Shown one piece after another: positions 12,765 through 56,853 of a stretch of DNA of 64,000 nucleotides. A program made the translations under genes and the position numbers. Under the pieces are notes generated by a model. That model was not told the DNA's origin, searched no databases, and worked only from the letters and a program-made list of their open reading frames with translations. The DNA comes from Oscillatoria salina IIICB1 (GTDB taxonomy: Bacteria; Cyanobacteriota; Cyanobacteriia; Cyanobacteriales; SIO1D9): positions 1-64,000 of the forward strand of contig NZ_JAAHBQ010000004.1 of assembly GCF_020144665.1 (NCBI RefSeq), in the 5' to 3' direction. Numbering within the stretch: the stretch's first letter is position 1; each line of letters opens with the position of its first letter.

Positions 12765-15700
12765 CTACCTTTGAGTAGATGTACTTGATTGAGCCTGGCA
12801 ATTTGGATGAGTAATTACTACCCCTTGAGGTGTTACTTGGGGTGCATTGGCGGTTAAAACTATTGTACCGTCAGGCATTGTTACCCAACCTTGGGCTTGA
12901 CGAATAACTGGTGTAGCTTGTTGGGTGGCAATTTCTCGCTGACGTACTACGGGAGGAGTTTTTGACTCGGTTTGGACTTGGGGACGAAACCATTCTATTA
13001 TACCTGTTAACGGTGTCAGAGGTTGGGTAGGATTGGTTGGTAAACCGCCTCTTCCGGTGATAATAAAAGAACTTCCCCCGGCAATTTTCCCATCTTCAAG
13101 ACGACACAAATCTCTCGCGACTAACGATTCTACATCGATAGTTTCGGTTGATAGTTCTACTATGCCTTGAGTGGGATCTACTTGAGTGTTAATTTCGATT
13201 GTACCGTCGATGCCGCGTTCGGAAGTAGCAGTAATCGCGCTAGTGTTATCTAAAAAGACACCTTCGGCGGTAATTTGAATGTTACCACCAGATCCGGCGA
13301 TCGCGTTAGCACTGATCGAGCTATTCTCGCGCACAATAATAAACTTCGCATCGCTAGTAATGTTACCCCCTGTCGCACTTCCGGTAGCATTAGTTGTAAT
13401 CGCGCTATTATTTTCTAACTCAAGATTCGTAGTTGTCAGAGTAATATTACCACGATCTGACTGAGCAGTTTCGGCGCTCAGAGTACCTTGATTAAGATTA
13501 ATTTCGTCAGCGATAATATTTAAACTACCAGCAATTCCCTCAGTTGAGCTAACCGCAATCTCAGAATTTTGGAAAACGTCTAATCTTCCTGTCTCAATAT
13601 TCAACGAACCCGCTTCACCTGTAACTGTCGCAGAAGCATTCAAATTACTATTATTATTTAAGCTGATTTCTTGCGGTGCAATTACGGTCAAATTGCCGCC
13701 AATTCCCTCTTGCGTTGCTGCTGAAATCGTCGCCTGATTATCTAACCTCAAAGTTTCGGCTAAATCAAGAATAATATTCCCATTTCCACCCAAACTTGTT
13801 TCTGCACGAATACTCCCACTATCAAGAAAAACATTACTCGCTGTAATACTTAATTGTCCCGCATCCCCACCACCTAAACTATTAACAAATATTCCCGAAT
13901 TTTCGCCATTAATTAACAGCAAATTAGTGTTTACAGCTAACGAACCTGCCTCCCCATCTCCCCTAGCGGAAGCTTCTAAGATACTATCATTATTTAAACT
14001 TACTTCTTGAGGCGCATTGATAATCAAATTACCGCCATTTCCTTCGTTGGTAGCAGCCGAAATAGTCGCCCCGTTATCCAACCTCAAAGATTCACTTAAA
14101 TCTAGGAAAATATTTCCATTTCCACCTAGATTAGTTTCCGCACCAATAACCCCATCATTCAGAAAGATATTCCTTGCTGTAATTTGTAATTCTCCCGCAT
14201 CACCACCACCTAAACTATTGACAAATACGCCGGAATTTCCCCCATTAATTACCAGCACATCTGTATTTACAGTTAACGCCCCTGCTTTACCATCTCCACT
14301 TGCCGAAGCAGTCAAATTACTATTATTAACTAAGTTTACTTCTTGAGGGGCATTGACAATTAAATTTCCCCCAGTTCCTGCTCTCGTCGAAGCTGAAATA
14401 CTCGCATTATTTTCTAAACTCAAACTCTCGGTTAAATCCAGAATAATATTTCCATTTCCACCTAAATTTGTTTCCGCCCGAATACTACCACTATCTACAA
14501 AAACGTTGTTAGCGGTAATACTTAATTGTCCCGCATCACCACTTCCTGCACTATTAACAAATATTCCCGAATTACCACTAATAGAAACTAAATCTGTATT
14601 TACAGATAACGAACCTGCTTCGCCATTTCCTAAAGCGGATGCACTCACATTACTATTATTTGCTAAACTTAATGACTCGGTTAAATTTATTTGAATATTT
14701 GCGTTACTACCTTGATTAGTTTCGGCAATAATACTTCCGTTATTTAGCAAAACATTATTAGCTGTAATTTGCAATTGTCCGGCATCGCCAGTTCCCCGAC
14801 TACTAACAAAAATATTTGAACTTTGACGCACAAATACTTCTTCACTGTTGATAGTTAAACTACCTGCTTGACCTGCGCCAAAAGCTTCCGCAGAAATTAC
14901 GCTATTATTTTCTAAAGTTATGTTTGGTGTCTCAATAATTAAATTTCCTCCGATTCCATCAGTAGTAGTTGCAGCAATAACGGAGTTGTTGAGTAAATTT
15001 AGAGATTCTGAAAGTTGGATAGTAATCGAACCTTCGGAACCATTATTATTAGAAACATTAATAATACTACCGTCAATGAGAAAATTATTAGCTTCGATCG
15101 ATAAATTACCTGCTACTTGGTTTGCCCGAGATTGAGATTCTAAGGTGCTAGTAATAGCATCTTCTCTATTGGTATCTATTATTTGGATGTTGTCGGCAGT
15201 AATAAAGACATTCCCTGGTTTTCCTTCGCTAAAAGTACCCGCAGCTATTGCTGCTCCATCTAGCATTAAAAGCCGCTCAGTATTAATAGTAATATTACCG
15301 CCATCTCCGGTTGCTTCTGTTTGTACATCAGAAAAAAAACCAGTGGGAGATTGACTATTACCAATGATTTCTATTTCAGTAGCATTAATAAGCACATTTG
15401 CGCCGTTACCTTCGCCAAAAGTACCTGCACCTATTCTAGCTCCATTGCTAAGGGTAAAGCGTTCTGTATTAATAGTAACAGTGCCGCCATCGCCACTTGC
15501 TTCTGGTTTTACGTCTGACAATAAACCAGTCAAAGACTGATTATTAGTAAGCGCTCCGATTAAGTTTATTTCTGTACTATTAATTGTTAAAGCTCCAGCA
15601 TTTCCTTCACTAAAACTAGAAGCGGAAATTACGGCTCCATCGACTAAATTGAGCAGGTTACTGTTTACCGTAATACTACCACCATTTCCGGTGGCTTCTC

Positions 15701-17594
15701 GCAAAACATCAGAATAAAATCCGCTACTGGATGAGTTATTATTAGGATTACCAATTAATTCGATTTGGTTAGCATTTACTAATAAATCGCCTGCGTCTCC
15801 TCCACCTAATGTGGAAGAAGAAATTATAGCTCCATTTTGGACAGTTAAATTTTCAGTATTAATAGTTAAAATGCCACCATTTCCTGTGGCTTGGGCTTGA
15901 ACTTCAACGAATAAACCGCTTGATAAATCGGGATTGTCTCCGTTAATTACTGCTACATTAGTAGCATTAATAGTTAAGTTACCAGAATCGCCTGCACCGG
16001 AGGTAAAAGCTTTAATTTCTCCGCCATTAATCACGTTAAAAATTTCAGTATCAATGGTTACATTGCCACCAGTTGCAGTGGCTTCGGCGGTGCTACCTGT
16101 GCGAATTGTACCATCAATTAATTCTACTGTTTCGGATGCTTTAATAATAATATTACCACCCGATCGCGTGCCTCGATTTTCACCAGAGATGCGTGAGTCG
16201 TTAGTCAACGCTAAACGCCTTGCTTGTATTTGCACTTCGCCGCTACCAAAGCCACTGACATCGACGAGGGCGGAATTATTTAGCTCAATGTCGCGAAAGT
16301 TCTCTATTTGCTCGTAATTAAGCGCATATCCTCTTTCTACTGTCTCGATACCTACGATACCATCATCAACGCTACCTAATTCAATCCTACCTTCGGCGAC
16401 TAAGGCAATACCACCATCAAAGAAAATATCTCCGCCAATTAAGGCTAAAGTTTGTTGTGGGGGTACGACTAAACCTGTTTGTTGATTGATAGATTGATTG
16501 ACAATGCTGCCTCTTTCTTCTCCCACCAAAAGATTAAAAGATAATGCTGTTGGCGCTACGGCAAGTAAGTTACTATTTTCGGGATTTGTGGCACTAAATA
16601 AGCCTGTTGTCCCGAAGTTAATGGCATCGGCGGTGCTGGCGATAAATGAACCTGAGACACTTAAACTCGCATTTCCACCAAAGTTAATTCCGTTTGGATT
16701 AAGGAGAAATAAATCTGCTGTTCCTAAAACTCCTAAGCTGCCTAAAATTTCTGAAGAATTTTCTCCGGTTACTCGTGAGAAAATGCGCTCAACTCCTGTG
16801 GGATTTTCAAATAATATTCTTTCGCCTGCTTCAACGTTAAATTCGGAAAAACTATGAAATAAATTTGCGCCGCGAGTTGAACCACCAGTAATATTTTTGC
16901 TTGTATTTTCTGACGTTATTACTAGGGAATTTTCTGTGCCCAAAGTATCATCGGGAATCAAACGCGATGAGTTAGTTGGTTCGCTATTTTCAGCCTCAAT
17001 AGTTAAAACTTCTCCTGGGTTAACTGTAACTCCAGCGATTTGATTTTGTTGGGCGGTTAAAACGGTTAAACTATTAGAAAATAAGGCATTTGGTTGCACG
17101 TTTAATAAGATGCTATTTTCTGGGTTTGTAGCGCTAAATATCCCATTTTCTCCTAGTTGAATAGCGTCCGCGCTGCTAGCCACAAATGAGCCACGAATAT
17201 CTAAGCTAGCATTTTCACCAAAAAAGATGCCGTTGGGATTAAGTAAAAATAAATTTGCGGTTCCTTCGACACCTAAAACACCAAAAATATTACTTGCATT
17301 GCTTCCAGTTACGCGAGTGAGAATGTTTTCAATTCCATCAGGATTAGCAAAATAAACGCTGCTTCCTTCACTAATATTAAATTCAAGAAAGCTGTGAAAT
17401 AAATTGCTTCCTCTGGTTGCTCCGCCAGTAATTAAATCTTTTAATTCTTCAACTGCATTGACTCGGGAATTTTCTGTGCCTAATGTTGCATCGGGAATTA
17501 ATTGTGCTTTGAGTTTGCTAGTTTCACTAATGCTGGCAAGTAAAGAAAAAGCTAATGTTAGCGAAGCTACTGGAAGAATTCGCACGAAGTTCAT
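12765..17594 (-). CDS. Two-partner-secretion exoprotein (TpsA, filamentous haemagglutinin-like) with two TPS domains
   Basis: A 1609-residue secreted protein. Residues 1-31 form a signal peptide ending KLKAQ. Two successive filamentous-haemagglutinin N-terminal (TPS) domains follow: residues about 32-165 (LIPDATLGTENSRV, GSNLFHSFLEFN, LFLLNPNGIFFGENASLDI) and about 211-350 (LIPDDTLGTENSLV, GANLFHSFSEFN, LFLLNPNGINFGGNASLSV). The TPS domain targets an exoprotein to its outer-membrane partner TpsB, which is not in this window. Residues about 390-1490 are a beta-helix of GG(N/D)xxI and SGDAGxLxI repeats, including three 112-residue near-identical modules. The C-terminal 120 residues are Pro/Gln-rich with an unpaired Cys. 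Expected to act at the cell surface in adhesion, aggregation or contact. No clear Shine-Dalgarno precedes the ATG at 17594. Confidence 0.9.
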   Translation of the reverse strand: MNFVRILPVASLTLAFSLLASISETSKLKAQLIPDATLGTENSRVNAVEELKDLITGGATRGSNLFHSFLEFNISEGSSVYFANPDGIENILTRVTGSNASNIFGVLGVEGTANLFLLNPNGIFFGENASLDIRGSFVASSADAIQLGENGIFSATNPENSILLNVQPNALFSNSLTVLTAQQNQIAGVTVNPGEVLTIEAENSEPTNSSRLIPDDTLGTENSLVITSENTSKNITGGSTRGANLFHSFSEFNVEAGERILFENPTGVERIFSRVTGENSSEILGSLGVLGTADLFLLNPNGINFGGNASLSVSGSFIASTADAINFGTTGLFSATNPENSNLLAVAPTALSFNLLVGEERGSIVNQSINQQTGLVVPPQQTLALIGGDIFFDGGIALVAEGRIELGSVDDGIVGIETVERGYALNYEQIENFRDIELNNSALVDVSGFGSGEVQIQARRLALTNDSRISGENRGTRSGGNIIIKASETVELIDGTIRTGSTAEATATGGNVTIDTEIFNVINGGEIKAFTSGAGDSGNLTINATNVAVINGDNPDLSSGLFVEVQAQATGNGGILTINTENLTVQNGAIISSSTLGGGDAGDLLVNANQIELIGNPNNNSSSSGFYSDVLREATGNGGSITVNSNLLNLVDGAVISASSFSEGNAGALTINSTEINLIGALTNNQSLTGLLSDVKPEASGDGGTVTINTERFTLSNGARIGAGTFGEGNGANVLINATEIEIIGNSQSPTGFFSDVQTEATGDGGNITINTERLLMLDGAAIAAGTFSEGKPGNVFITADNIQIIDTNREDAITSTLESQSRANQVAGNLSIEANNFLIDGSIINVSNNNGSEGSITIQLSESLNLLNNSVIAATTTDGIGGNLIIETPNITLENNSVISAEAFGAGQAGSLTINSEEVFVRQSSNIFVSSRGTGDAGQLQITANNVLLNNGSIIAETNQGSNANIQINLTESLSLANNSNVSASALGNGEAGSLSVNTDLVSISGNSGIFVNSAGSGDAGQLSITANNVFVDSGSIRAETNLGGNGNIILDLTESLSLENNASISASTRAGTGGNLIVNAPQEVNLVNNSNLTASASGDGKAGALTVNTDVLVINGGNSGVFVNSLGGGDAGELQITARNIFLNDGVIGAETNLGGNGNIFLDLSESLRLDNGATISAATNEGNGGNLIINAPQEVSLNNDSILEASARGDGEAGSLAVNTNLLLINGENSGIFVNSLGGGDAGQLSITASNVFLDSGSIRAETSLGGNGNIILDLAETLRLDNQATISAATQEGIGGNLTVIAPQEISLNNNSNLNASATVTGEAGSLNIETGRLDVFQNSEIAVSSTEGIAGSLNIIADEINLNQGTLSAETAQSDRGNITLTTTNLELENNSAITTNATGSATGGNITSDAKFIIVRENSSISANAIAGSGGNIQITAEGVFLDNTSAITATSERGIDGTIEINTQVDPTQGIVELSTETIDVESLVARDLCRLEDGKIAGGSSFIITGRGGLPTNPTQPLTPLTGIIEWFRPQVQTESKTPPVVRQREIATQQATPVIRQAQGWVTMPDGTIVLTANAPQVTPQGVVITHPNCQAQSSTSTQR
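13494..14494. repeat. Three tandem 336-bp modules in the exoprotein gene
   Basis: The segment encoding (S/V)IRAET(N/S)LGGNGNI recurs at 14461, 14125 and 13789, exactly 336 bp (112 codons) apart each time, and the modules between them are closely similar at protein level. They form part of the beta-helix stalk and allow length change by unequal recombination. Confidence 0.85.
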
Positions 17595-31185: not shown

Positions 31186-34100
31186 ATGTCACTCGAAAAC
31201 CTCGGATTTTACTCACCCACCTTAGAAGAGATTTGCGATCGCTCTCCACTTCAAGTAACTCCCGATACTCCCCTCGAAGAAGTTCTCGATCGAATGTACC
31301 AGACTATCGGCACTCAGTGTTTAGTTGCAGATGGTAAGGCTGAAAGTAAAGTACTTTCTAGCAGCTATGCTTTAGTAATCGAAGCTAACAAAATTGTGGG
31401 GATTTTTACCGAACGAGATTTAGTAAATATTGCCGCAAGCGAAAAAAAACTTGCTCAGTTAACTGTTTCTGAGGTAATGACGAAGCATTTGTTTACCTTA
31501 AACAAAAGTGAATATCGAGACGTTTTCGGGGTTTTAGCAATCTTACGACAGCATCGCATTCGTCACCTGCCAGCGATCGACGAACAGGGAAATATCTTTG
31601 GAGTCATTACTCAAGATCGACTGCGCGAGTGTATGCAACCCCTGAGTTTGCTGAAGTTGCGAACTGTCGCTGAGGTGATGCACGCTCAGGTAATTTGCGC
31701 ACCAGCAACAACTTCGGTGTTAGATTTAGCTCGGTTAATGGCAATGCACCAGGTTAGTTGTGTTGTAATTGTTGAAAATGGAGAGACTTTACAGACAAAC
31801 TCTCCACAAAACTCACCAGTTACCAATTCCCAGTCCCTAATTCCCAGTCCCCAGTCACCAGTCACCAATTCCCAATCTCTCAAACCGATTGGGATGATTA
31901 CTGAGCGAGATATTGTCCAATTTAAAATCTTAGGTTTAGATTTAGCACGTTTACCAGCGTCAGTGGTTATGAGTGCGCCACTATTTTGTCTGAATCCCAC
32001 TGATAGTTTAGCGATCGCTCATCAAAAAATGCAGCGTCGGCGCATCCGGCGTTTAGTCGTAACTGGTTCTGGGGGAGAGTTACAAGGAATAGTTACCCAA
32101 AGCAGTTTATTGCGTCCTCTCGATCCAGTTAATTTGTATGATGTGGTCGAAGTTTTGCAGCAAAAAGTTTGTCGTCTGGAAACCGAGAATTGGCAACTCC
32201 TACAGCAAAAGAATACTGATTTAGAGCAACAAGTGCAAGAACGGGCGGCAGCGCTACAACAACAAGCTCGACGCGATCGCCTCTTGGCAGATATTTCTTT
32301 ACACATCCGCCAATCGATCGATATTAATGACATTCTCAACATTACCGTAACCGAGATTAGAGAGTTTTTTGCTGCCGATCGGGTAATTATTTATCGTTTT
32401 TCTGAAGATTGGAGTGGAATTGTCGTCTCCGAGTCAGTTGCAGAAGGTGCTGAGTCGTTGATGGGACGAGTTATTTACGATCCTTGCTTTGCTCCCAACT
32501 GGGTTGAACCTTATAAAAAAGGTCGCATTCATCCTGTCAGCGACATATATACCGCAGGAATGGCTCGGTGTCACCTCGAACTTTTAGAGCAATTACAAAT
32601 ACGCGCCAAATTGTTAGTTCCCGTACTGACTGGCGAAGAATTGTGGGGTTTAATGAGTGTAAATCAGTGTTGGGAATCCCGACAGTGGCAACCAGAAGAA
32701 ATCGAATTACTAGAAAAAGTAGCTACTCAAGTAGCGATCGCCATTCAACAAGCGACTTTGTTCGATCGCGTCCAAGCCGAACTTGAAGAACGTTCTTTAG
32801 CCGAAACCAAACTCCGCCTTCGCGCTCAACAACAAGAAGCGATCGCCCAACTCGGTCAAATTGCTTTAGCGCAAACAGACCTCGATGCACTCATGGACGA
32901 AACGGCTAAAATCATTGCTAAAACTCTGCAAGTCTCACACTGTCAGGTTTTGGAACTACTTCCCAATCGAGCTGCACTGTCTCTCAAAGCTGGTATCGGC
33001 TGGCAGCAAAATTGGCTTGGACAAGCGATCGTTAGTGTCAACCAACGCACGCAAGCAGGTTATACTTTACTGCAATCTCAACCGATAGTAGTTGAAGATT
33101 TGCGCGTCGAAAATCGCTTCGGCGGTTCCCCTTTTTTACACAACCACGGCATCATTTCCGGCATAACCGTAGTTATTCCCGGCAAAAATAACGAAGCCTA
33201 TGGTGTTTTGGGAGTGCATACCACCACAGCCAGAAATTTTACTACCGACGACGTTAACTTTTTACAAACAGCAGCAAATATTTTAGCGATCGCCATCGAA
33301 CGCCGACAAGCAGAAGAAGAGTTAAATCGCTTTTTCAATATTTCTTTAGATATGTTCTGTATTGCTGGTATCGATGGCTATTTTAAGCGCCTTAATCCTT
33401 GTTTTGAATCCACTCTTGGCTACACTGAAACCGAACTACTCACCAAACCATTTATTGACTTTGTTCATCCTGATGACGTAAATTCTACTTTCACTGAATT
33501 AGAAAAGTTATCCGCAGGTATCCCCAGCACTTATTTTGAAAATCGCTATCGCACTAAAGAAGGTAATTATCGTTGGTTTGCTTGGACATCTCATCCGGCT
33601 GTTGATGGCAAACTTTATTCTGTCGCTCATGATATTACCCAACGCAAAGAAGCCGAAGCCGAACTAAAAAAATTAAATGAAGAACTAGAAACCAGAGTCG
33701 AACAACGCACCCGAGAATTAGTTAAAACCGTCGCCGAACTCATGCAAGAAATTAGCGAACATCGGCGCACCGAAGAAAAACTACGCGAAAGTGAAGAACG
33801 TTTCCGTAACTTAGTAGAAACTAGTAGCGATTATATCTGGGAAATTGACTGCAACGGAAACTTTACTTATCTTAGCCCCAGAGTTTATGATATTTTAGGT
33901 TATCACCCCCAAAAATTACTTGGCAAAAACTTTTTTGATTTAATGCTACCCCAGGAAGCAGAGCGAGTCGAAGAAATTTTTAATCTCCAAGTACGAGCAA
34001 GACAAAGTATTCACAACTTAGAACATACCCTTATTCATCGCCAAGGTTATCTCATTTTTGTCGAAACTAGCGGTACACCAATTTTTAACGCTCAAGGTCA

Positions 34101-35529
34101 ATATAAAGGTTATCGCGGTGTTGAAAGAGATATTACCGAACGCAAACAAGGAGAAGCCGAACGACAAAAATTAGCTGCTTTAGTCGAAAATAGTAGCGAA
34201 TTTATTGTCATGACTAGCGTATCTGGACAGCTTACTTATCTCAACCGAGGTGGTAGGGAATTAGTAGGTTTAAATGAAGATATAGCTTTAGACACCAAAC
34301 CTATTACTGATTTTTATTCACCAGCAGATTTATCTCAAATAGTAACGAAAATTTTGCCCAAATTACGCCAAGGTGAAGCTGATACTGGCGAAATTGGTTT
34401 GCGTCACTTTCAAACTGGAGAAATTATCCCCAGTCTCTATAATGTTTTTCCAATTAAAGAACGAAATACTAAGCAAATTTTAGCTTTTGCTGGCATTTTT
34501 CATAATCTCAGCGAACGGAAGAAATTTGAATTAGCTTTACAAGAATCCAAGCAACAAATTTCCGATATTTTAGAAAGTATCACCGAAGGTTATTTTGCTT
34601 TAGATAAACAATGGCGATTTATTGCTGTTAATTCTTACTTGGAACCAATTTTACAGCGTCCGGCAACAGAATTAATTGGCAAAAATATTTGGTCAGTATT
34701 TCCAGAAGCTATCGGAACTAAGTTTGAAGCTGCTTATCTTCAAGCAACTGAAGAACAAAAAACAGTCGCTTTTGAAGAATATTATCCACCCTTAAAAATT
34801 TGGTTTGAAGTGAGAGTATATCCCTACAAAGATGGCATCTCAGTTTACTTCCGAGATATTAGCGATCGCAAAAAAGCTGAAGAAAAAATTAAAGCTTCTT
34901 TACGGGAAAAAGAATTGTTACTAAAAGAGATTCACCATCGCGTTAAAAATAATTTGCTCGTAGTTTCTAGCTTGCTTGAATGGCAAGCTGATTATTTCAA
35001 AAATCCGAAAATTATTAAAATGTTTGAAAATAGTCAGCATCGCATTCAAACAATGGCTTTAATTCATGAAAAATTATACCGCTCTGACGACTTAGCGCAA
35101 ATTAATTTTGGTGACTATTTAGAAACATTAGTTAATCATATTTTTATGTCTTGTAATCCTGAATCTCAATCAGTTAAAATCGCTCTAGATTTACAACCAA
35201 TTAATTTAAATATTGAAACAGCTAATCCCTGTGGCTTGATAGTTAATGAATTAGTTGCTAATATATTTAAACACGCATTTCCTGGTGACAGAAAAGGCAA
35301 AATTTGGCTAAAATTAGAGAAAAATAAAGCTCGAGAAATAACTCTAATAGTCAAAGATAATGGTGTCGGCTTCCCCGAAACAATCGATTGGCAAAATACA
35401 GAATCATTAGGTTTGCAACTAGTTTGTACTTTAACCGAACAAATAGAGGGTAAACTAGAATTAGAGCGAAGTCACGGCACAACATTTAAATTAACATTTT
35501 CCGAATTGCACTACGAAAGGAGATTATAA
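31186..35529 (+). CDS. CBS-cyanobacteriochrome-PAS sensor histidine kinase (HisKA_2)
   Basis: A 1447-residue soluble multidomain kinase. Residues about 10-140 and 155-315: four CBS domains (GIFTERDLVNI, FGVITQDRLRE, GMITERDIVQF, LQGIVTQSSLL). Residues about 363-530: a GAF domain with DPCF (Cys434) and ARCHLELLEQLQIRAKLLVP (Cys462-His463); the 28-residue spacing matches DXCF-type cyanobacteriochromes such as TePixJ, so a bilin-binding violet/blue-region photosensor is expected. Residues about 550-705: a second GAF without those motifs. Four PAS domains at about 715-820, 868-980, 994-1110 and 1116-1225. HisKA_2 box EIHHRVKNNLLVVSSLLEW near 1248, then HATPase (NPCGLIVNELVANIFKHAF, DNGVGFPE). The third CBS domain carries an in-frame repeat insert at about residues 203-233. 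The next gene starts 4 bases after its stop. Confidence 0.9.
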   Translation: MSLENLGFYSPTLEEICDRSPLQVTPDTPLEEVLDRMYQTIGTQCLVADGKAESKVLSSSYALVIEANKIVGIFTERDLVNIAASEKKLAQLTVSEVMTKHLFTLNKSEYRDVFGVLAILRQHRIRHLPAIDEQGNIFGVITQDRLRECMQPLSLLKLRTVAEVMHAQVICAPATTSVLDLARLMAMHQVSCVVIVENGETLQTNSPQNSPVTNSQSLIPSPQSPVTNSQSLKPIGMITERDIVQFKILGLDLARLPASVVMSAPLFCLNPTDSLAIAHQKMQRRRIRRLVVTGSGGELQGIVTQSSLLRPLDPVNLYDVVEVLQQKVCRLETENWQLLQQKNTDLEQQVQERAAALQQQARRDRLLADISLHIRQSIDINDILNITVTEIREFFAADRVIIYRFSEDWSGIVVSESVAEGAESLMGRVIYDPCFAPNWVEPYKKGRIHPVSDIYTAGMARCHLELLEQLQIRAKLLVPVLTGEELWGLMSVNQCWESRQWQPEEIELLEKVATQVAIAIQQATLFDRVQAELEERSLAETKLRLRAQQQEAIAQLGQIALAQTDLDALMDETAKIIAKTLQVSHCQVLELLPNRAALSLKAGIGWQQNWLGQAIVSVNQRTQAGYTLLQSQPIVVEDLRVENRFGGSPFLHNHGIISGITVVIPGKNNEAYGVLGVHTTTARNFTTDDVNFLQTAANILAIAIERRQAEEELNRFFNISLDMFCIAGIDGYFKRLNPCFESTLGYTETELLTKPFIDFVHPDDVNSTFTELEKLSAGIPSTYFENRYRTKEGNYRWFAWTSHPAVDGKLYSVAHDITQRKEAEAELKKLNEELETRVEQRTRELVKTVAELMQEISEHRRTEEKLRESEERFRNLVETSSDYIWEIDCNGNFTYLSPRVYDILGYHPQKLLGKNFFDLMLPQEAERVEEIFNLQVRARQSIHNLEHTLIHRQGYLIFVETSGTPIFNAQGQYKGYRGVERDITERKQGEAERQKLAALVENSSEFIVMTSVSGQLTYLNRGGRELVGLNEDIALDTKPITDFYSPADLSQIVTKILPKLRQGEADTGEIGLRHFQTGEIIPSLYNVFPIKERNTKQILAFAGIFHNLSERKKFELALQESKQQISDILESITEGYFALDKQWRFIAVNSYLEPILQRPATELIGKNIWSVFPEAIGTKFEAAYLQATEEQKTVAFEEYYPPLKIWFEVRVYPYKDGISVYFRDISDRKKAEEKIKASLREKELLLKEIHHRVKNNLLVVSSLLEWQADYFKNPKIIKMFENSQHRIQTMALIHEKLYRSDDLAQINFGDYLETLVNHIFMSCNPESQSVKIALDLQPINLNIETANPCGLIVNELVANIFKHAFPGDRKGKIWLKLEKNKAREITLIVKDNGVGFPETIDWQNTESLGLQLVCTLTEQIEGKLELERSHGTTFKLTFSELHYERRL
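31795..31884. repeat. Intergenic-type repeat inserted in frame in a CBS domain
   Basis: CACCAGT, CCCAGTCCC, CCCAGTCACCAGTCACC and CCAATTCCCAATC units, the same sequence family as the gap repeats, lie within coding sequence. They encode a Pro/Ser/Gln/Asn-rich insert (NSPVTNSQSLIPSPQSPVTN) between a strand and the GMITERD motif of the third CBS domain. Confidence 0.85.
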
Positions 35530-35533
35530 AATT

Positions 35534-36640
35534 GTGAATGAAGTTAAGATTTTAATTGTTGAAGATGAGCTATTAATAGCCAAAAGTTTGTCACGAAAAT
35601 TACAAGCTTTGGGATATACAGTAGTAAGTGTTGTTTCTTCGGGATTAGCAGCTCTACAAAAAACCATTGAACTTAACCCTGACTTGATTTTAATGGATAT
35701 TGCAATCAAAGGAAACTACGATGGTATCGAAACAGCAAATATGATTCGTGAAAGTCATAATATTCCGATTGTTTATTTAACAGCTTATGCCGATGACGAC
35801 ACTTTAGCAAGAGCTGAAAAATCTGGTTCTTATGGTTATATTCTTAAACCTTTTAAAGAAAGAGAGTTACACGCAACAATTAAAATTGCCTTAAAAAAAC
35901 ACGAGGAACAACTAAAAATTGCCGAAATTCTCGCAGCATCTCAAGCTAGCAATGAAGAAAAAAAGCGTTATATTTCAATTGTATCTCACGACCTAAGTAA
36001 TCCCCTAACTGCAATCCAAATCTCTACAGAAATCTTGCAAAATTACGATCGGCAATTAGACGAAGAAAAAAAGAAAAAGCAGATCGAAAGAATTCAAGTA
36101 GCAGTTAGCAACATGAGCGAGTTATTGGGCGATATTTTAACCTTGAGTCGTGCTGAATCAGGTAAACTAATGTTAAATCCTATACCGCTAAATATTGCTC
36201 TGTACTGCCAAAACTTATTAGCAGAATTTAGCATAATTGCTACAGAAAAGCATAGTTTAAAATTTAGCGATCGCGGAGAATGCCGCCTAGTTTATTTAGA
36301 TGAAAAACTCCTGCGTCACATTCTCAACAACTTACTTTCCAATGCGATTAAATATTCTCCCCAAGGCGGTAAAATTAGCCTCAATCTAGTTTGCAAAACA
36401 GAACAAGTTATCTTGCAAGTAACCGATGAAGGAATTGGTATTCCCTCAGATTATCAAAACAAAATTTTCCAACAATTTGAACGAGCAAAGAACGTAGGCA
36501 AAATTAAAGGAACTGGCTTAGGTTTATCAATTGTCAAGCAAGCAGTCGAACTCCATCAAGGTACAATTTTTGTAGAAAGCAAAGAAGGAGTAGGTACTAG
36601 ATTCACCGTCACTCTACCTACACATTCTCCTCGTCAATAA
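35534..36640 (+). CDS. Response regulator receiver-histidine kinase hybrid
   Basis: A 368-residue protein with a receiver domain first (VEDE at residues 9-12, phospho-Asp55 in LILMDIAIKG, LTAYADD, YILKPFKE) followed by a HisKA domain (RYISIVSHDLSNPLTAIQIS, His152) and a HATPase domain ([50 protein letters not shown]). It starts at a GTG four bases after the stop of the cyanobacteriochrome kinase, behind AGGAG, so it is cotranscribed and is the likely phosphoacceptor. Its own kinase output could then phosphorylate an unlinked regulator. No DNA-binding domain. Confidence 0.9.
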   Translation: MNEVKILIVEDELLIAKSLSRKLQALGYTVVSVVSSGLAALQKTIELNPDLILMDIAIKGNYDGIETANMIRESHNIPIVYLTAYADDDTLARAEKSGSYGYILKPFKERELHATIKIALKKHEEQLKIAEILAASQASNEEKKRYISIVSHDLSNPLTAIQISTEILQNYDRQLDEEKKKKQIERIQVAVSNMSELLGDILTLSRAESGKLMLNPIPLNIALYCQNLLAEFSIIATEKHSLKFSDRGECRLVYLDEKLLRHILNNLLSNAIKYSPQGGKISLNLVCKTEQVILQVTDEGIGIPSDYQNKIFQQFERAKNVGKIKGTGLGLSIVKQAVELHQGTIFVESKEGVGTRFTVTLPTHSPRQ

Positions 36641-54462: not shown

Positions 54463-56853
54463 ATGATGATTCATCTGGAAAATAACAGTATTTTAGACAA
54501 TTTTACGGATGTGTTTTTCGTTTTGGACAGTAGGGGAAGATTCACATACCTAAATATACGAGCAGAACAATTTTTTTTGTGCAGCAGAGCAGAATTAATT
54601 GGTAAGTGTATTTGGGATAAGTTTCCCACATTAGCAAAAACCAACTTGGAGCAACAGTATAGCTTAGTAAAATCAAGTCAAGTGAGTGTTAAATTTGAGG
54701 AATTTTATGAACCTTTAGGCATTTGGTTTGAAGCCAGTATATTTCCCTACCAAGAAAATTTTGTCGTCAGTTGGCGAGATCTCAGTGAATGCACGCAAAA
54801 ATCTCATTTAGCTAGGTTACAAGCAAAACTAACCGAAATTATTGCCGCCGGAGAAAGTTTAACTGCTACCCTGCAAAAATGTACGGAGATAATAGTAAAC
54901 CAGCCAGATATTAGTCGAGCAGAAATCTGGACTTATAACTTGAAAGAAAAACAGCTACAACTAACAGTTTTTTCCGAGAAAGTATCTGCTCGGGAGAATC
55001 AAGAAGACTACAATAATCGTCAAAATCTTAATGGCGATCGGAAGTTATCAAGCTCAAATAATAGGTGCGTTGACGAAAATTTAATTGAGATAATTGCTAG
55101 GACTAGGGAAGCATATTATGGTATTCCTCAGCAAAGTCAAGAAAGAAAAAAGGGAAGTTTATCATTCGATGTAAGTGAAGAAAAAAGCTATTTTATTGGC
55201 TACCCATTGTTACTCGAAGAAAAATTAGTTGGTGCGATCGCTTTTTGGTGCGATAAGCCAGGAAATTCACAAATGGAGGAAACTTGGTCTAGTTTGTTAA
55301 AGCTAATCGCTATAGGGATAGAGCGTTGTTGGGCAAAACAAGCAAAAGCTTCTCATCGAGAAGGCTTAATTTTTTGTCTAGCTAATCAAATACGCAATTC
55401 TTTAGACCTTGATACAATCTTGCAAACTGCTGTCAGTGAAATCCGCAGTTTGTTACAAGTAAATCGTTGTTTTTATTTGTGGTGTTGGTCGAAGCCGAAT
55501 CACCCTAGCTTGACAATATCTCACGAAGCTTGTGACCCTGAAAGTAAGTTAAGTACAATTGGAGACTGTCCGCCGCAAAAGTTAGGGCTTTTAGCCAAGA
55601 CAGTTACTAGTAATACAATTTTATGTATAGACGAGATTAGTAATTATTCAGCTAAGAAAGATGAAGAAACAATCGAATTGCTAACTGAGTTGGGTATTAG
55701 TTCGATACTCTTGTTACCTTTAAAAACTCGCGCTGGACATTTAGGAGCGATCGCCTGTAGTAACTCTGAGGGTAAAAGAGTGTGGAAAAATGAAGAAATA
55801 GATATTTTGCAAGCAGTAGTGGATCAATTAGCGATCGCGATCGACCAAGCAGAATTGTTCGCTCAAGCTCGCGCTACTGCTCTTGCTGCTCAAACTCAAG
55901 CTCAACAACTACAATTAACTTTACAACAACTGAAACAAACTCAAGGGCAACTGATCCAAAATGAAAAAATGTCGAGTTTGGGGCAAATGATAGCAGGGAT
56001 CGCTCACGAAATCAATAATCCGGTTAACTTTATTAGCGGTAACTTAAGCTGTACGAGCGAGTATGCAGAAAACGCGATCGCCCTATTGAAACTTTATCAA
56101 AAACATTATCCTTTTCCTGACCCAGAAATTCAGCAGTATGTAGAAGATATTGATTTGGAGTTTTTGGCTGAAGATTTGCCGAAAACTATTGCTTCGATGC
56201 ACGTTGGTGCAAATCGCATCCGGGAGATTGTACTTTCGTTGCGTAATTTCTCGCGTTTAGATCGAGCAGAAATGAAGCCTGTGGATATCCACGAAGGAAT
56301 TGAAAGTACCTTGTTGATTTTACACAATCGCCTCAAAGAAAAAGCACATCAGCGCGAAATTCAAGTGATTAAAGAGTTTGGCGATTTGCCGAAGGTAGAG
56401 TGTTATGCGGGACAACTCAATCAAGTATTAATGAATATTCTCAGTAATGCTATTGATGCTTTGGAAATGACCTCAGATAAGCAAGAAAGTAATTTAGAGA
56501 TATTGAGCGATTCGAGATTAATACCGATGATTCGCCTCCGCACTCAATTAGTTGAGGATTGGGTGAGAATTTCGATTGCGGATAACGGTCCGGGTATGAG
56601 TGAGAAAATCCGCGATCGCATTTTCGATCCTTTCTTTACTACAAAACCTGTAGGTAAAGGTACGGGTTTGGGACTATCAATCAGTTATCAAATTATTGTC
56701 GAAAAACACGGTGGTAGTTTCGAGTGTATTTCTGCACCCGGAGAAGGAAGTGAGTTTATTATCCAAATTCCTCTTACACCGCTACCTGAGAAAATGAGGG
56801 GACGATCGTTTGAGGGAGCTTTGGGAGAATTCTCCGAATCAGAAGAGGGATAA
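54463..56853 (+). CDS. PAS-GAF-GAF sensor histidine kinase
   Basis: A 796-residue soluble kinase. PAS at about residues 8-105 ([30 protein letters not shown]), GAF1 at about 130-290, GAF2 at about 310-465 (no cyanobacteriochrome Cys-His or DXCF motif), coiled coil of Gln/Ala-rich residues ([20 protein letters not shown]), HisKA box [25 protein letters not shown], HATPase ([59 protein letters not shown]). It is the first gene of the chemosensory operon. The stop TAA lies in an AGAGGGATAAACTGATAA motif, a short relic of the gap repeats. Confidence 0.9.

Follow-up and report, generated by a model that had tools for sequence, protein, structure and literature searches.

Cells that live by photosynthesis have to balance the colour of the light against their own energy state. 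The gene at 31186..35529 of the window, by which we mean the whole 64,000-nucleotide stretch of DNA analysed, raises the question of whether a single kinase could receive both signals, with a cyanobacteriochrome (CBCR) GAF domain for light and a head of CBS domains for adenylates.

Architecture of the protein

The open reading frame lies on the forward strand, starts with ATG and is intact, encoding 1447 aa. Pfam annotation gave four CBS domains, GAF domains at residues 379–520 and 565–706, four PAS domains, HisKA_2 at 1248–1322 and HATPase_c at 1351–1439, which is the order set out in the original prediction: four CBS, a CBCR GAF, a plain GAF, four PAS and HisKA_2. The transmitter scores (HisKA_2 E = 2.3e-28; HATPase_c E = 3.7e-10) place it in the HisKA_2 class of histidine kinases, and beyond the general PAS model all NCBIfam equivalog matches to the protein fell below threshold. 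The product is a soluble cyanobacterial histidine kinase that takes several inputs; its features and neighbouring gene are as follows.

31186..35529 (+): multi-sensor histidine kinase, 1447 aa, CBS4-CBCR-GAF-PAS4-HisKA_2-HATPase (ORF, Pfam)
31186..32175 (+): four-CBS head, residues 1–330, AMPK-gamma-like disk (Pfam, AlphaFold2, PDB match, conservation)
32233..32790 (+): DXCF cyanobacteriochrome GAF, residues 350–535 (Pfam, PDB sequence match, tree, AlphaFold2, Foldseek)
32485..32487 (+): Cys434, the second Cys, in DPCF (aligned with TePixJ Cys494)
32569..32574 (+): Cys462-His463, the canonical predicted bilin-linking Cys and adjacent His (aligned with TePixJ Cys522-His523)
32878..33303 (+): second GAF, residues 565–706, without DXCF or Cys-His (Pfam GAF_3, sequence)
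33373..34872 (+): four PAS domains, residues ~730–1229 (Pfam and TIGR00229, four stretches)
34927..35502 (+): HisKA_2 and HATPase_c transmitter, residues 1248–1439 (Pfam; motifs EIHHRVKNNL, N-box and DNGVG)
35534..36640 (+): REC-HisKA-HATPase partner kinase, 4 bp downstream of the CBS-CBCR gene (Pfam)

The cyanobacteriochrome GAF domain

The first GAF had been assigned to the DXCF type on the basis of two cysteines spaced as in TePixJ, and a gap-free alignment upheld that spacing. Cys434 in DPCF (D432-P-C434-F) and Cys462-His463 in ARCHLELL are exactly 28 residues apart and fall on TePixJ Cys494 and Cys522 over 144 residues with zero gaps and 42.4% identity. When the window GAF was searched against the PDB with phmmer, the CBCR kinase 6OAP came first (E = 1.8e-49), and TePixJ was matched at E = 1e-36. 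Chance spacing of two cysteines was ruled out by homology, given these E-values and the conservation of the cysteines in relatives. The family-conserved columns are intact, as are Cys434, Cys462, Asp432 and His463.

The GAF tree comprised 65 GAFs, including TePixJ, AnPixJ, NpR6012g4 (6BHN) and 6OAP together with the GAFs of the source genome and both of its phytochromes. The window GAF nested within the CBS-linked CBCR GAFs (98/85), not outside the cyanobacteriochromes, and the two phytochromes stood apart from it on a branch of 2.9. Pfam found no PHY domain in the 1447-aa protein, leaving a GAF that stands alone as in DXCF cyanobacteriochromes. Phytochrome identity was ruled out by the lack of this domain and by the placement of the phytochromes in the tree. 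Because the deeper forks of the tree were without resolution, no closest characterised subtype is named. The AlphaFold2 model of the GAF had a pLDDT of 91, and its first Foldseek matches were 6OB8/6OAP, TePixJ (4FOF/4GLQ), AnPixJ and miRFP670nano proteins; tree and model thus both agree with the cyanobacteriochrome assignment. One Fe-bilin reductase family member and two heme oxygenases are encoded in the source genome, so a chromophore route is present. In typical DXCF domains phycocyanobilin (PCB) is isomerised to phycoviolobilin (PVB), the second Cys binds C10 and the switch is blue/green (PMC11284453). The window GAF is an ordinary member of the DXCF family, and bilin attachment is predicted from its residues.

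The TePixJ GAF (3VV4, 4GLQ, 2M7U) shares with it the two cysteines 28 residues apart, DPCF followed by W-V-E-x-Y, the Cys-His pair and the fold. TePixJ is, however, a chemotaxis-type receptor, whereas the window protein is a CBS-headed histidine kinase, and the TePixJ GAF is not the nearest branch in the tree. The dual-sensor histidine kinase CBCR 6OAP/6OB8 is the best PDB match by both sequence and fold, but DQYF replaces DXCF, so that the second Cys is absent, and the solved chain is without a CBS head.

The CBS head

The guess that the CBS part may sense adenylates gained support from an AMPK-gamma-like model and conserved motifs. In the AlphaFold2 model (pLDDT 84, pTM 0.81) the four CBS repeats fold as one disk, for which the best PDB match was AMP-bound SSO3205 (3DDJ; Z 26.9 over 264 residues, 2.6 A), followed by MJ1225 (Z 26), with the gamma chains of AMPK at Z 21–24. 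AMPK gamma and these archaeal proteins thus share the four-CBS disk (Z 21–27 over ~240–264 residues) and TxxD in two CBS domains. They differ in that identity is 15–19% and in that the window head is fused to a photosensor and kinase, with an adenylate as its putative ligand.

In CBS proteins, T-x-x-D holds ribose. The motif occurs in CBS1 (T75-D78; T in 32/36 heads, D in 36/36) and CBS3 (T239-D242; T in 33/36, D in 34/36). CBS2 and CBS4 have T-x-x-R/S with the Asp absent, leaving one TxxD per CBS pair, which counts against the adenylate reading. A basic RHLP strand in CBS2 (R126-H127-L-P) is conserved at R in 29/36 heads and at H127 in 34/36, and R289 in CBS4 is conserved in 28/36; these residues presumably sit where AMPK gamma has phosphate-binding His-Arg pairs. 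Other CBS ligands include SAM, metal ions and NAD, and some CBS domains bind nothing. On motifs and model, AMP, ADP or ATP may occupy the disk, the ribose sites of CBS1 and CBS3 being the likeliest places.

A 7-bp tandem repeat (unit like CCAATTCCCAGTCC) was detected by TRF at 31823..31877 (+), in frame inside CBS3. The loop that it encodes is disordered in the model (pLDDT <50 at residues 208–211 and 213–228), and its opposite strand falls in an ORF at 31686-32000 that is probably spurious.

Distribution of CBS-linked cyanobacteriochromes

The N-terminal 538 aa were used as a query against 148 genomes, and a protein was counted as CBS-GAF where the match started at or before residue 300 and ended at or after residue 480, with neither all four CBS domains nor both cysteines required. 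Among the matches listed, such proteins occurred in at least 60 of the 147 other genomes of the order, and the head was also found in other orders of the same class. A one-off fusion is ruled out by this presence in many genomes. The architecture is therefore common within the order rather than special to the 31186-35529 protein, a point that goes beyond the original prediction. In fourteen full-length relatives annotated with Pfam, this head led into HisKA_2, into HisKA (alone or joined to REC), into GGDEF or into GGDEF-EAL. A contig scan with the whole protein as query yielded a single locus, which was irrelevant. A plasmid search returned only distant CBS or CBCR matches, the best from Pseudanabaena galeata (33.5%), annotated only as CBS domain-containing, and a literature search of non-subscription papers found CBS-linked cyanobacteriochromes discussed nowhere. 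The CBS-CBCR layout is widespread and the group little discussed; the present analysis adds the resemblance of the head to AMPK gamma and the putative output cassette described below.

Alignment with the CBCR family, which the original prediction had proposed as a check, gave both cysteines in 32 of the 37 GAFs behind CBS heads, the window GAF included (Cys434 in 33/37, Cys462 in 34/37). The second-Cys motif is altered to DxYF in L060 and L064 and to DPCV in L056, L077 and L078. The CBS-CBCR-GGDEF-type protein at L053 5068-5625 (+) has DTCF, but its canonical Cys, retained in the three close relatives L054, L055 and L057, is replaced by Gly; this replacement is a natural test of single-Cys attachment. 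The CBS-GAF kinases at L129 3763-6222 (-) and in L041-L044 have a GAF without either bilin Cys, so the layout persists without the photosensor.

Two proteins of the same order, L069 and L072, share CBS-GAF-GAF-PAS-HisKA_2 with a downstream REC-HK, L072 being collinear with the window protein over 1245 columns at 38%; they belong to other families of the order and differ in the number and type of PAS domains. A more divergent 772-aa protein (L138; CBS-PAS-DPCF GAF-GGDEF) is encoded by the Thermosynechococcus-like genome G345, which also has a TePixJ-like GAF (69% identical). L138 is probably a CBCR diguanylate cyclase of the SesA (Tlr0924) type. Like the window protein it has CBS domains and then a DPCF GAF, but a PAS lies between the two, the output is GGDEF and the CBS part is just 27% identical. 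SesA of Thermosynechococcus is a diguanylate cyclase activated by blue light (PMC5871770). No GGDEF was found by Pfam in the window protein, whose output is HisKA_2; it is therefore a relative of SesA in layout and not SesA.

A probable output cassette

The gene 4 bp downstream encodes a receiver with its acidic pocket, Asp, Thr and Lys intact and a kinase with its own HisKA His motif. All ten of the other CBS-CBCR-HisKA_2 genes have a REC-HK homologue directly downstream (46–51% identical), compared with none of the 27 members with other outputs. The gap is mostly no more than ~20 bp, with 110 bp at L079 and an overlap at L069. Fisher's test of this pairing gave 2.9e-9, a value that overstates the evidence as the loci are related. 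The pattern points to HisKA_2 and REC-HK as a fixed output cassette, with the 35534..36640 product the likely phosphoacceptor judging from motifs and gene order. The partner could instead receive from another kinase, REC-HK-like genes numbering 258 first-look candidates in the genome.

Elsewhere in the same genome, a second HisKA_2 kinase (1656 aa; C26:38545-40280) also has a REC-HK gene directly downstream.

Proposed mechanism and alternatives

The reading that we favour, and regard as reasonably probable, is that the protein is a violet/blue-green photosensor, that adenylate level tunes the output of its kinase, and that this output goes to the adjacent REC-HisKA partner. Sequence and models supply its parts, namely four CBS domains, a DXCF GAF, a second GAF, four PAS domains, HisKA_2 and the neighbouring REC-HK; from these we infer the ligands, colours, sign and coupling. 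Phycocyanobilin would be linked through Cys462 and may be isomerised by the domain to phycoviolobilin. The addition of Cys434 to C10 would be reversible, with a dark state that absorbs violet/blue light and a photoproduct that is green or possibly orange. With AMP, ADP or ATP bound in the disk, the CBS-GAF helix would relay nucleotide state to signalling helices also moved by the bilin. Light and adenylate would then converge on a single helical spine that runs to HisKA_2, and this domain would phosphorylate the receiver of the partner.

A working DXCF photosensor could also sit behind a CBS head that serves dimerisation or structure and senses no nucleotide. The missing ribose Asp of CBS2 and CBS4 would fit such a head, and a shared fold shows no function; nevertheless, the CBS1 and CBS3 motifs are conserved across four output types, a pattern that scaffolding by itself would not easily account for, and the best structural match is AMP-bound. 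We judge this rather unlikely, though by no means negligible. Still less probable is that domain shuffling has made CBS and CBCR mere neighbours without functional coupling. The same head does occur in proteins whose match to the query breaks off ahead of the GAF (many end near residues 340–390), and outputs are freely shuffled behind it. Against this, CBS context is clustered on the GAF tree (8 changes vs 21.9 in shuffles), and distances between CBS heads correlate with those between GAFs (Mantel r 0.50, equalled in 0/2000 permutations). Clustering and correlation fit joint inheritance as a unit and fall short of proving coupling; the Mantel correlation may reflect shared descent alone.

Lastly, the GAF could have ceased to bind bilin in vivo, leaving a kinase that is tuned by nucleotide or by redox state. 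Precedents are the relatives without either Cys (L129, L041-L044) and the lost canonical Cys of L053, but the window GAF keeps both cysteines, Asp432, His463 and the family-conserved columns, and the genome encodes the bilin enzymes. We consider this highly improbable.

An AMPK-gamma-like module beside a photoswitch in one protein allows a direct biochemical test of how light is weighed against energy. As the same head drives both kinases and c-di-GMP enzymes, with relatives in at least 60 of 147 genomes, one result would extend to a large group. A more tentative proposal, which we hold to be possible while leaning against it, is that these proteins form a widespread class of cyanobacterial receptors. 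In them the AMPK-gamma-like module, as adenylate sensor, would gate the blue/green photosensor directly, making the light response of the cell depend on energy charge inside a single polypeptide, and kinase, c-di-GMP and hybrid outputs would be attached to this unit.

Other observations in the window

A PAS-GAF-HisKA kinase at 54463-56853 (+) has a GAF without DXCF or Cys-His and is by these marks no CBCR. The 1609-aa product of 12765-17594 (-) contains a TPS secretion domain and is likely a two-partner-secretion exoprotein.
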